Shown here: positions 1,720 to 5,321 of the stretch, one piece after another
Numbering within the stretch: position 1 is the stretch's first letter
How the letters are laid out: each line of letters starts with the position of its first letter
Notes under the pieces: generated by a model
What the model was told of the DNA's origin: nothing
The model's database searches: none
Seen by the model: the letters and a program-made list of their open reading frames with translations, nothing else
Translations under genes and position numbers: made by a program
Assembly (NCBI GenBank): GCA_040757115.1
Contig: JBFLYA010000255.1
Coordinates: forward strand, 1-5,321
DNA: 5,321 nucleotides
Origin: a bacterium
Lineage (GTDB): Bacteria > UBA9089 > CG2-30-40-21 > SBAY01
Reading direction: 5' to 3'

Positions 1720-1727
1720 AAAGGAGG
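1720..1727 (+). promoter_or_regulatory. Orphaned Shine-Dalgarno (AAAGGAGG) formerly serving the propeller gene
   Basis: AAAGGAGG is a near-perfect ribosome binding site but has no start codon at usable distance. If the transposon at 1735-2145 and one copy of its 8-bp target duplication are removed, the site lies nine bases (ACTTTTCAA) before the ATG now at 2156, an ideal spacing. The present ATG has only a pyrimidine-rich sequence (GACTTTTCAA) directly upstream and no visible Shine-Dalgarno. Confidence 0.8.
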
Positions 1728-1734
1728 ACTTTTC
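1727..1734. repeat. Left 8-bp target-site duplication (GACTTTTC)
   Basis: GACTTTTC directly precedes the left terminal repeat of the 411-bp element and is repeated exactly at 2146-2153 directly after the right terminal repeat. An 8-bp direct repeat abutting both ends is the signature of transposition, and eight bases is the length known for IS66-family insertions. Confidence 0.85.
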
Positions 1735-1759
1735 GTAAGAGTTCAGGTAGGATAAAAAT

Positions 1760-1795
1760 AAGGAGAAAGGGAGAAGATGGAGAAGTGGAGAAAAG
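1760..1795. repeat. Purine-rich left arm of long inverted repeat (partner 2077-2110)
   Basis: This is an almost pure A/G tract built of GGAGAA-like units. Its reverse complement is found imperfectly at 2077-2110 as CTCC/TTCTCC units on the + strand. Shared blocks include AAGGAGAAA at the outer side and TTCTCC/GGAGAA units inside. The pair forms the stem of the outer 411-bp element. Low-complexity composition makes part of the similarity trivial, but the placement is symmetrical about the element centre. Confidence 0.65.
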
Positions 1796-1848
1796 AAGAG
1801 TTAGGTGATAGGATTATTAATGTCTGTATTAATGTCCATAAAAAGTTA
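1777..1848 (+). pseudogene. Possible remnant: N-terminus of a GxxExxY-family gene
   Basis: An ATG at 1777 opens a frame with EELGDRIINVCINVHKKL, preceded by an AAGGGAGAAG purine run. This resembles the start of GxxExxY proteins (PF13366, a PD-(D/E)XK-like family), typically EL..KIIG.A.EVHKELGPG. The frame is broken at the TA marking the left end of the 188-bp element, inside which it stops at 1858-1860. If that element and one TA are removed, the next codon is GGA, restoring HKKLG as in the family. Beyond that the frame runs 29 more codons to TAA at 2122-2124 without recognisable GxxExxY sequence, so most of the gene had been lost already. It is very short and non-functional; the match rests on about 18 residues recalled from memory of the family. 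Confidence 0.45.
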
Positions 1849-2034
1849 GTGTCGTGTTGAACAAATAACGCACGGAATTTGATTCTGGTAACTGGTGATT
1901 GGTAACTGGTAATTAAATACCGTTGGGCTGAGCTCAGGGCGAAACTATTTAACCAATTACCAGTTACCAATTATCCGTTTGCAGGTTACGAAACCTGATG
2001 ATGCCCCGTGCAAAAGTTACTCAACACGACACTA
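1847..2034. mobile_element. 188-bp palindromic MITE nested in the outer element, TA-flanked
   Basis: TAGTGTCGTGTTGA (1847-1860) and TCAACACGACACTA (2021-2034) are perfect 14-bp inverted repeats. A further inverted match, GCACGG/CCGTGC (1870-1875 and 2006-2011), lies at the same distance from each end, extending the imperfect terminal repeat to about 29 bp. Each end begins with TA, consistent with duplication of a TA target as in the IS630/Tc1/mariner superfamily. A second inverted pair lies inside (1898-1914 and 1955-1971), and a small stem-loop CAGGTT-ACGA-AACCTG occurs at 1982-1997. No coding capacity is convincing. It sits almost exactly between the two arms of the outer element (about 114 and 111 bp). 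Confidence 0.8.
1887..1971. repeat. Internal hairpin with GGTAACTGGT direct repeats
   Basis: GGTAACTGGT occurs twice with a 14-base period (1887-1896, 1901-1910). ATTGGTAACTGGTAATT (1898-1914) is exactly reverse-complemented at 1955-1971, so a 17-bp stem with a 40-base loop can form. The loop carries the palindrome CTGAGCTCAG (1928-1937), followed by GGGCGAA. It resembles dispersed REP-like palindromes with a CTCAGGGCGAA end, which is a recollection rather than a search result. Confidence 0.75.
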
Positions 2035-2076
2035 GGATTGATGTCCAAAGGGTGGAGCAAGGAAAAGTTTGAGCCA

Positions 2077-2110
2077 TTTCTCCAATTCTCCCTTTTCCCC
2101 ATTTCTCCTT
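2077..2110. repeat. Pyrimidine-rich right arm of long inverted repeat (partner 1760-1795)
   Basis: This C/T-rich tract of TTCTCC units ends in ATTTCTCCTT, the reverse complement of AAGGAGAAA(T) in the left arm at 1760-1768. Together with the terminal repeats it makes the outer element a large imperfect palindrome. Confidence 0.65.
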
Positions 2111-2145
2111 GTTTACACTTCTAATGTATAGCCCTGAACGGTTAC

Positions 2146-2153
2146 GACTTTTC
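2146..2153. repeat. Right 8-bp target-site duplication (GACTTTTC)
   Basis: This is an exact copy of 1727-1734, directly abutting the right terminal repeat (2133-2145). It ends two bases before the ATG of the propeller gene, so the insertion lies just outside the coding region. Confidence 0.85.
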
Positions 2154-2155
2154 AA

Positions 2156-3148
2156 ATGAGTAGTAAGAAGGTAGTGTTATCAGGATTAGGGATTGTGGGT
2201 ATTCTTCTTTTTGGATATGCAATATATTATGCCATTTTCCCTGTTACTACAGAGTCAGATTTAGTTTCCTATCATGCACCTTGCTGGGGAGAGAAAAACA
2301 AGATTTATTTTATAAAGAAGGTGAGTTTTGCCAGGAAGATATTAAATCCTATGTCGCTATTAAGCATAGGTTTTTTTGGGGGCGGAGATTATTTACCAGA
2401 TCATACTGAGGTATATCTGTGTTCGATGAATTATGATGGGACAGATAAGAAGGAGATAGTAAAGATTGGGGATACAGATGATAACACTTACTGGCTGCCA
2501 ATGTATCTTGATTATTGTAAGGCAAATAATTTACTACTTTTGTCAGGTGGAATGCATCCTGCAAGGGGAGAAGTTTACCAGGGTATATATACAATAAAAT
2601 CAGATGGGAGAGATAAAAGGAAGATTTCAGAGGTAGGTTTGCATGCCACATGGTCACCTGATGGGAGACAAATAGTACATAGTGGAGGTTTTATAATGAA
2701 TGCAGATGGAAGTAATAACCATCCTATTTTTAGTAAAAATTCAGAATGTTGGGGAAAAAGCCGAGACTTTATCTGGTCACCCAGAGGCGACTTGATTGCC
2801 TTTGTTTGCCACGGCTGGATATATACCATGAAACCAGATGGAAGCGAGAGGAGGAAGGTGTGTAAGGGGGATCGTCTCAAGGGATGGACATTGGATGGTA
2901 AGGAGATTATTGGGGATGGATATACGGTTAGATTAGATAGCAAAGAAGAAAAATTATTGTATGACGCAGAAGCAGGAACATATTGGGGAGGAAGATATTC
3001 GTTGGACGGAAGGTTTATGCTCGGGGAAATAGGTTTTGTTGTCCGTGATATAGAAACGATGAAAACTATAAATCTTTTTGCTGATATTGAAATTAAAGGT
3101 AAACATCGAGAGCATTTTGTCTATAAGAGACCGAATAATATTTGGTAG
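2156..3148 (+). CDS. Membrane-anchored TolB/WD40-like beta-propeller protein (copy 1)
   Basis: The 330-residue protein begins with a short basic segment (SSKK) and one hydrophobic helix (about 6-29), then an extracytoplasmic domain. No lipobox or clear cleavage site is seen, so an N-terminal anchor is likely. Propeller blades of the TolB/PD40 type are visible: YLCSMNYDGTDKKEIV (87-102), IYTIKSDGRDKRKIS (144-158), TWSPDGRQIV (165-174), IMNADGSN (180-187), IWSPRGDLIAFV (206-217), YTMKPDGSERRKV (223-235), WTLDGKEI (244-251) and YSLDGRF (281-287). Such propellers usually act in protein-protein contacts; no catalytic residues are evident and the partner is unknown. ATG 2156 is chosen because it aligns with the paralogue at 4320 and an in-frame stop lies at 2135-2137. 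No Shine-Dalgarno precedes it, because a transposon separates the gene from its original site at 1720-1727; translation may be reduced. The next gene follows after 16 bases. Confidence 0.85.
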   Translation: MSSKKVVLSGLGIVGILLFGYAIYYAIFPVTTESDLVSYHAPCWGEKNKIYFIKKVSFARKILNPMSLLSIGFFGGGDYLPDHTEVYLCSMNYDGTDKKEIVKIGDTDDNTYWLPMYLDYCKANNLLLLSGGMHPARGEVYQGIYTIKSDGRDKRKISEVGLHATWSPDGRQIVHSGGFIMNADGSNNHPIFSKNSECWGKSRDFIWSPRGDLIAFVCHGWIYTMKPDGSERRKVCKGDRLKGWTLDGKEIIGDGYTVRLDSKEEKLLYDAEAGTYWGGRYSLDGRFMLGEIGFVVRDIETMKTINLFADIEIKGKHREHFVYKRPNNIW

Positions 3149-4171: not shown

Positions 4172-4309
4172 AATAATGCGTGGATTGCTACTAAATGTGT
4201 TGATGAAGATATGTGGGAGGGATATAGTAAAGTTACTGAGACTATCTATACGAAGAGCCAAATTAATACTGGTCTTGCTGATAGTGAATTTGAGCCAACA
4301 TTTGAATAG
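4172..4309 (+). pseudogene. Orphan C-terminal fragment of a LolA-like gene
   Basis: In frame +2, codons from 4172 read NNAWIATKCVDEDMWEGYSK and continue to QINTGLADSEFEPTFE before TAG 4307-4309. This aligns without gaps to the last 45 residues of the LolA-like protein ending at 1701 (AWLATKC, DMWEG, SKVTETIY, QINTG, DSEFEP, FE all shared). The frame is open only from 4151, with TAA at 4148-4150, and has no start codon at its head; upstream sequence belongs to the lipase-like gene. It is therefore the 3' stub of a second LolA-like gene whose body was deleted or replaced. Restoring one G near 4157-4159 would place it in frame with the lipase (3165-4309, 381 residues), so it may be the tail of a former fusion protein. 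Its stop overlaps the ribosome binding site of the next gene. Confidence 0.85.
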
Positions 4310-4313
4310 GAGG
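4308..4313 (+). promoter_or_regulatory. Ribosome binding site AGGAGG of propeller copy 2
   Basis: AGGAGG overlaps the TAG stop of the LolA remnant and lies six bases before ATG 4320. It favours 4320 over the in-frame ATG at 4326 and shows the tight spacing that the LolA-like/TolB-like pair probably had before the insertion in copy 1. Confidence 0.8.
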
Positions 4314-4319
4314 GAACAG

Positions 4320-5321
4320 ATGAATATGGACAAGGTGGTAAGGATTTCAGCATTAACAGGATTAGGAGTAGTAGTTTTTTTGTTGGGATATACATTATAT
4401 TATGCAGTTTTTTCTATTACTAAGGAATCAGATTTAATCTCCTACCATGCACCTTGCTGGGGCGAGAAAAACAAGATTTATTTTATCAAGAAGGTGACTT
4501 TTGGGAAGGCAATAATAAATCCTTCTTCATTATTAAACAAGATTCTTTATCTTGAGGGGGATTATTTACCGGAGAAAACTGAGGTATATGTATGTTCGAT
4601 GAATTACGATGGAAGCAATAAGAAAGAGATAGTAAAACTTTGTGATACAGACATTGGTAATAGAGAATATGGTGAGACAAAAGAAGGGAGTTATTGGTTA
4701 CCGAGATATATGGACTGGTGTTCTGCTAATAATTTACTGCTTATTTCAGGAGGAGATATTCCAGGAAGAGGAGAAACTTCACAAGGGATATATACAATGA
4801 AGATAAATGGGCAGGATAAGAGGAGACTGTCAGAGACAGGGGTGCATGCCTCCTGGTCACCGGATGGGAAGAAAATAGCATATGAAGTAATCACAAAAGA
4901 ATCAAGGAGTGAAAAAATGTATGGTTATAAGGAGCCTGTAGAATATTATGATAAGGAGAATACTATCTGGGTAATGAATAGTGATGGCAGTGATAAACAT
5001 CAGATATCAAGAGAGAAAATACTAACGCGAACAGGCAGATGGGTGCGTGATGAACAAGGGAAACCAGTTATGGAAAATGGAAAAGAGAAGTATAAATGGG
5101 AGAAAAAGTATATGGATGAATCCCCCATCTGGTCACCCAGAGGTGATTTGATTGCCTTTGTCTGTAAAGGATGGATTTGGGTGATGAAACCAGATGGAAG
5201 CGAGAGGAGGAAGGTGATTGACACTTGCCATCTTTCTGATTGGTCTCCGGATGGAACAAAACTTATGACTTCAGCACTTTTAGGAATCGTTGATTTAAAT
5301 GGTAATGTGGTTAAAAAATTT
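4320..5321 (+). CDS. Membrane-anchored TolB/WD40-like beta-propeller protein (copy 2), 3' end outside window
   Basis: From ATG 4320 the frame is open to the window edge (334 codons, no stop), so the C-terminus is missing. It is a clear paralogue of the protein at 2156-3148: an N-terminal helix (about 9-32), then a shared SYHAPCWGEKNKIYFIKKV (41-59), VCSMNYDGSNKKEIVK, YWLPRYMD, IYTMKINGQDKRR, ASWSPDGKKIAYE, IWVMNSDGSD, IWSPRGDLIAFV (270-281) and VMKPDGSERRKV (288-299). Blade motifs W-SP-DG are of the TolB/PD40 type, implying a scaffold or binding role outside the cytoplasm rather than catalysis. Compared with copy 1 it carries two charged, K/E/Y-rich expansions (about 189-215 and 231-268) between blades. 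A strong AGGAGG and spacing support the start. It would be read with the upstream lipase-like gene. Confidence 0.85.
   Translation, partial: MNMDKVVRISALTGLGVVVFLLGYTLYYAVFSITKESDLISYHAPCWGEKNKIYFIKKVTFGKAIINPSSLLNKILYLEGDYLPEKTEVYVCSMNYDGSNKKEIVKLCDTDIGNREYGETKEGSYWLPRYMDWCSANNLLLISGGDIPGRGETSQGIYTMKINGQDKRRLSETGVHASWSPDGKKIAYEVITKESRSEKMYGYKEPVEYYDKENTIWVMNSDGSDKHQISREKILTRTGRWVRDEQGKPVMENGKEKYKWEKKYMDESPIWSPRGDLIAFVCKGWIWVMKPDGSERRKVIDTCHLSDWSPDGTKLMTSALLGIVDLNGNVVKKF

Follow-up and report, generated by a model that had tools for sequence, protein, structure and literature searches.

A 411-bp nested mobile element lies between the Shine-Dalgarno sequence and the start codon of a bacterial propeller-like gene

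The window (the whole stretch of 5,321 nucleotides of DNA analysed here) begins with the 3′ part of a gene for Ig-like repeats and a C-terminal LolA-like domain, which ends at a TAG stop codon (1699-1701), and continues with a propeller-like gene whose reading frame is intact; a mobile element occupies the gap between the two. The propeller-like gene belongs to a repeated family, with copies at 2156-3148 and 4320-5321 of the window and a third on contig C216, the DNA of which is 95% identical to the second window copy. The features, in window positions, are as follows.

1-1701, + strand: upstream gene, 3′ part, with Ig-like repeats and a C-terminal LolA-like domain (PF17131, E 3.7e-7; PF17957)
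1720-1727, + strand: stranded Shine-Dalgarno sequence AAAGGAGG of the propeller gene (from the sequence and in-silico removal of the insert)
1727-1734, + strand: left copy of the 8-bp target-site duplication, GACTTTTC
1735-2145, + strand: outer mobile element, 411 bp, classed as an IS66-type MITE that arose by internal deletion from an element carrying a GxxExxY gene and that holds a second, nested MITE
1735-1747, + strand: left terminal inverted repeat, 13 bp, GTAAGAGTTCAGG
1756-1793, + strand: left purine-rich internal inverted-repeat arm of 38 nt, 84% complementary to 2077-2114; it reaches into the beginning of the GxxExxY remnant
1777-1848, + strand: 5′ remnant of the GxxExxY ORF, MEKWRKEEL..RIINVCINVHKKL (by comparison with the intact L035 and L042; family TIGR04256/PF13366)
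1847-2034, + strand: inner nested element, 188 bp, an IS630-type MITE with ends TAGTGTCGTGTTGA / TCAACACGACACTA, in the TA of GTTAGGACC
2033-2072, + strand: 3′ remnant of the GxxExxY ORF, joined after a deletion at an AGGA microhomology (..TCCAGGATTGATGTCCGAAGG..; by comparison with L035/L042)
2077-2114, + strand: right pyrimidine-rich inverted-repeat arm
2133-2145, + strand: right terminal inverted repeat, 13 bp, CCTGAACGGTTAC
2146-2153, + strand: right copy of the 8-bp target-site duplication, GACTTTTC
2156-3148, + strand: propeller-like gene, 330 aa, frame intact (its start is that of the orthologue and paralogues)
4309-4322, + strand: paralogous junction without insert, in which AGGAGG overlaps the preceding stop region and stands 7 nt before the ATG at 4320

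The junction reads AAAGGAGG, GACTTTTC, the 411-bp segment (1735-2145), GACTTTTC again, AA and the ATG at 2156, with G1727 serving both as the last base of the Shine-Dalgarno and as the first base of the duplication. A preliminary description had placed the Shine-Dalgarno at 1720-1727, where AAAGGAGG is found to the base, and the 8-bp direct repeat that it reported around the element is GACTTTTC, exactly outside 1735-2145 on both sides. It had also described the ATG as lacking a ribosome binding site, and the preceding 20 nt (GAACGGTTACGACTTTTCAA) indeed hold no Shine-Dalgarno-like motif. When the segment and one repeat copy are removed in silico, the proposed original arrangement reappears as AAAGGAGG-ACTTTTCAA-ATG with nine-base spacing, while the distance from Shine-Dalgarno to ATG is now 428 nt. 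A perfect 8-bp repeat exactly abutting both element ends has a chance expectation of 1.5e-5.

The 411-bp element is a transposition product. Its sequence has 79 matches in the 4.3-Mb genome, and so is by no means confined to this site, and a search for the 13-base end that tolerated one mismatch gave 642 sites in the genome, compared with 3 for the reversed control. Exact 8-bp duplications were seen at 45 paired-end rows from sampled stretches of the genome (among them a few that stem from stretches that overlap or from nested ends); the duplicated bases vary from site to site among them, and the duplication is missing at some copies of the element. Plasmid records gave no match to the element.

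Comparison with paralogues and an orthologue gives good, albeit indirect, evidence that an empty site probably once existed here. Both insert-free paralogous junctions, at the window ATG 4320 and on C216, read TAGGAGGGAACAG-ATG with AGGAGG 7 nt before the ATG. The empty-site allele itself, which the preliminary description had proposed seeking in relatives, was found in none of 61 genomes, and the orthologous locus of a genome of the same genus (G001, contig C417) holds a different insert. In that genome the gene order LolA-like, propeller, lipase is kept, the gap between the LolA-like and propeller genes (L166:1508-2052) contains an insert whose GxxExxY gene, 125 aa long, is intact and distinct, and GAGGAAGG still adjoins the ATG of the propeller gene. 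This gap is possibly a hot spot for insertion, or the two insertions may coincide by chance. Transposition between Shine-Dalgarno and ATG, as first claimed, is thus borne out by the inverted ends, the perfect duplication, some 640 copies of the end, the element matches and the two paralogous junctions; what that first interpretation missed is the nesting of two elements and the nature of the outer one, a gene carrier that has decayed.

The carrier is recognisable from intact relatives of about 496 bp, which bear a whole GxxExxY ORF of about 126 aa. One of these (L035; 496 bp, flanked by the duplication GTGTATAA) has an intact 126-aa ORF that contains the GxxExxY motif and scores 129 bits against TIGR04256 (cut-off 35) and 125 bits against PF13366, PDDEXK_3 (cut-off 22). 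The window copy encodes no intact GxxExxY protein, retaining only the 5′ remnant (MEKWRKEEL..VHKKL) and the 3′ remnant, and the longest ORF over its 411 bp is 75 aa on the minus strand without an assigned family, with no transposase gene. The same three-part composite structure also stands in unrelated flanks at C42 and C2, from which it follows that the composite 411-bp form has itself moved. Within the GxxExxY family the D and E-x-K residues are invariant, and the predicted model has a PD-(D/E)XK fold (pLDDT 94.5); the nearest solved structures are Cas4 SSO0001 and lambda-type exonucleases, at weak Foldseek E-values (0.004 and higher), and a sequence search for a solved GxxExxY structure found none. 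Elsewhere, a third MITE type (CGACCTGTGCGGTTA..TAATCGCACAGGTGG, with the 8-bp duplication GATCTTTT) is nested in GxxExxY ORFs (L033:1470-1690 and L040).

Both elements have ends that match those of transposase genes in the same genome. The best IS66 transposase (PF03050, E 1.9e-39, with two in-frame stops) lies on contig C277 between identical 13-bp ends, GTAACCGTTCAGG / CCTGAACGGTTAC (L051 893-2455, 1563 bp); the left end of the window element, GTAAGAGTTCAGG, differs from GTAACCGTTCAGG at two bases, and no duplication borders the transposase copy. No other nearly full-length IS66 transposase was found in the genome; this one is broken, and is the obvious former partner of the outer element. 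Its coding sequence also contains a near-perfect copy of the element end, GTAAGCGTTCAGG (L051:1273-1285). For the inner 188-bp element, which has more than 25 solo or nested copies in the genome, a DDE_3 transposase ORF (PF13358, E 4e-20) is found between TAGTGTCGTGTTGA and TCAACTTGACACTA on contig C265 (861-2074), and these shared ends identify the inner element as an IS630-type MITE. Its target is TA, as seen by comparing outer copies with and without it: GTTAGGACC is uninterrupted in L035 and becomes GT-TA-(element)-TA-GGACC in L038 and L041, and more broadly outer copies lacking the inner element read AAAAAGTTAGGACC while those with it read AAAAAGT-TA-GTGTCG..CGACAT-TA-GGACC.

With the nested order, the gene remnant, the ends, the duplication, the copies elsewhere and the transposase genes with matching ends all seen directly, the best explanation, which we regard as highly probable, is that a non-autonomous IS66-type element that had lost most of its GxxExxY gene, and had a 188-bp IS630-type MITE aboard, moved here as a single unit of 411 bp. 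Both the loss of most of the gene and the uptake of the MITE would have preceded this jump, which would have placed the unit between the propeller Shine-Dalgarno and ATG and duplicated 8 bp. The transposases presumably acted in trans.

For the propeller gene, translation from the ATG at 2156 has most likely been reduced rather than abolished. Lower translation is predicted because Shine-Dalgarno and ATG are now 428 nt apart, and a very stable hairpin lies between them. Loss of the Shine-Dalgarno need not be fatal, since a Shine-Dalgarno motif precedes the leftmost ATG in only about 57% of long ORFs (12% of random positions), and the organism evidently tolerates its absence in the remaining 128 of 297 (~43%). 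Nor is insertion at a translation start unique in this genome: at L091:2674-2890 a 201-bp element is flanked by an 8-bp duplication, AAAATGGG, that contains the start codon of the next gene.

Two other routes to expression were weighed. In the first, the insert would fold in the transcript so that Shine-Dalgarno and ATG come to lie about 15 unpaired nt apart and initiation continues, as in phage T4 genes 38 and 25, where structure between the Shine-Dalgarno and the AUG rescues initiation by shortening the distance from 22 to 5 and from 27 to 11 nt (PMC3014915). The predicted RNA fold has a minimum energy of -163 kcal/mol and forms one long hairpin that closes at C1734-G2146, flush with the insertion ends. 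The pairs that close it, 1734-2146 to 1738-2142, stand at 0.94-0.98. Both GGAGG and the first two bases of the AUG are predicted to be mostly unpaired, with an unpaired path from Shine-Dalgarno to ATG of 6 + 9 = 15 nt; the z-score of the DNA fold is -8.9. However, 15 nt exceeds the usual optimum, the G of the AUG is predicted to be partly paired, and a 400-nt hairpin would likely be cut by RNase III, and we consider continued initiation across the hairpin unlikely, at perhaps one chance in a few. The hairpin is also no sign of selection, as any inserted element with inverted ends would form one. Less probable still is that the gene now relies on another signal, either a promoter in the element, whose message would be leaderless or weakly led, or a start further on, at the GTG of codon 14. 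The large share of long ORFs without a Shine-Dalgarno before the leftmost ATG (~43%) means that such initiation may be common here, and a AGGATTAGGG stretch stands ahead of the GTG, but the element holds no promoter-like site, the count for the region is not above that of shuffled sequences (the search for an element-borne promoter or terminator found nothing above shuffles), and it is the ATG, not the GTG, that agrees with the starts of the orthologue and paralogues. That the junction is instead an assembly artefact, with a high-copy repeat joining two unrelated contig ends, might be suspected from a 462-contig assembly with a very abundant repeat family, but is largely refuted and very improbable given the perfect 8-bp duplication common to its two sides and a LolA-like, propeller, lipase gene order that the congener also has.

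The carrier from which the outer element decayed has a layout of its own. GxxExxY genes are common in environmental genomes, and we know of no function for them. In this genome 16 of the 19 full-length GxxExxY genes lie between inverted, internally repetitive arms that score at least 32 in a flank-against-flank test, compared with 6 of 331 other ORFs, a control for which slightly shorter flanks were used. The arm sequences differ by element type (GGAGAAAGGGAGAAG.., CGCAGAGACGCAGAG.., CGCAAAGAACGCAAAG.., CACGAATTNNACGAATT..). A sample of 80 GxxExxY loci (L253-L332) from named genomes of many phyla gave a similar picture: 54 of the 78 testable loci attain a score of 32, compared with 3.5% of the 141 other genes at these loci and with 7.5% of flank pairs that were mismatched. 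Per 200 nt, CRCRRAG is found 2.4 times upstream and, on the opposite strand, 2.5 times downstream (background 0.16), a count that is descriptive since the motif was picked after the arms had been seen, and its spacings at GxxExxY loci are mostly 8-10 nt. Periodicity does not reach significance in all arms, the purine-rich arm of the window's family being among the non-significant ones.

A comparable arrangement surrounds the S23 genes (PF05635, the 23S rRNA IVS protein) of the genome (L333-L352), 18 of 19 of which are framed by inverted arrays; these consist of short degenerate tandem repeats, with a period most often of 7 or 8 nt or double that and a motif that is different at each gene. In the open-access literature we found no description of the inverted-array layout of GxxExxY genes and no papers with the letters of the array motif, and among the open papers searched the GxxExxY name appears in two, in at least one of them in passing. 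The inverted-array layout of GxxExxY and S23 genes seems to be undescribed. We tentatively suggest, at somewhat less than even confidence, that the outer element is one outcome of a class of hairpin elements that is widespread, occurring in many phyla, and so far undescribed, in which a small PD-(D/E)XK nuclease gene (GxxExxY) sits between inverted CRCRRAG arrays, usually 8-10 nt apart, in a layout like that of S23/IVS. The arrays may be cis sites, at the DNA or RNA level, for the small protein, and here such units would have been captured between IS66 ends and would have decayed into hundreds of MITEs. In this genome, it is IS66-type ends that move array-plus-gene units. A broader origin, of all MITEs of the genome from GxxExxY or S23 carriers, did not stand up to its control: 37 of 40 duplication-verified MITEs matched flanks of GxxExxY and S23 genes, but flanks of random genes matched 28-34 of the 40. 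Descent from GxxExxY carriers is hence kept for the window's family alone, in which the ORF remnant attests to it directly.

The locus offers a clean natural experiment on what happens when a mobile element parts a ribosome-binding site from its start codon, and the insert-free paralogue on the same contig makes the effect on translation easy to test. Beyond this locus, the conserved inverted array of short motifs beside GxxExxY genes in many phyla is a concrete candidate cis site, and the layout that GxxExxY and S23/IVS genes have in common suggests that one principle may underlie both of these orphan families.

Among known systems, the outer element is closest to the ISBst12 group of the IS66 family, with which it shares GTAA..GTTCAG/CTCAGC-like ends and 8-bp direct repeats. 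One end of ISDge4, a single-ORF member of that group, reads 5′-GTAACTGCTCAGCA, and the element comes with an 8-base repeat (PMC12898284); repeats of 8 bp are likewise generated by two IS66 elements of Paracoccus (PMC3281130). The single-ORF transposase of the group is matched here by the L051 copy, whereas the window element lacks a transposase and is what internal deletion has left of a GxxExxY-gene carrier. The inner element agrees with IS630-family MITEs in its TA target and in the 14-bp ends of the DDE_3 copy on C265, and differs from them in nothing essential. The split ribosome-binding sites of T4 genes 25 and 38 (PMC3014915) resemble the junction in having RNA structure between Shine-Dalgarno and AUG, but at this junction the predicted structure is formed by a mobile element, some 400 nt long, that has inserted there. 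The 23S rRNA IVS with its S23 ORF is likewise a small ORF whose flanking inverted repeats fold into a single long hairpin; in that of Coxiella burnetii the S23 ORF is accompanied by terminal inverted repeats and, next to it, short tandem heptamers, and the hairpin is reported at -143 kcal/mol with a 28-bp stem (PMC4990558). The window element was nevertheless rejected as such an IVS: it sits between protein genes, its ORF remnant is of the GxxExxY family rather than S23, it has transposon ends and an 8-bp duplication, and an Rfam search of the window returned no RNA. REPtrons consist of a RAYT gene between inverted REP sequences and have many gene-free derivatives. They are like the class to which we tentatively assign the outer element in having a single gene bracketed by inverted short motifs, with gene-free derivatives, but in place of a Y1/HUH transposase the protein here is of the PD-(D/E)XK class.
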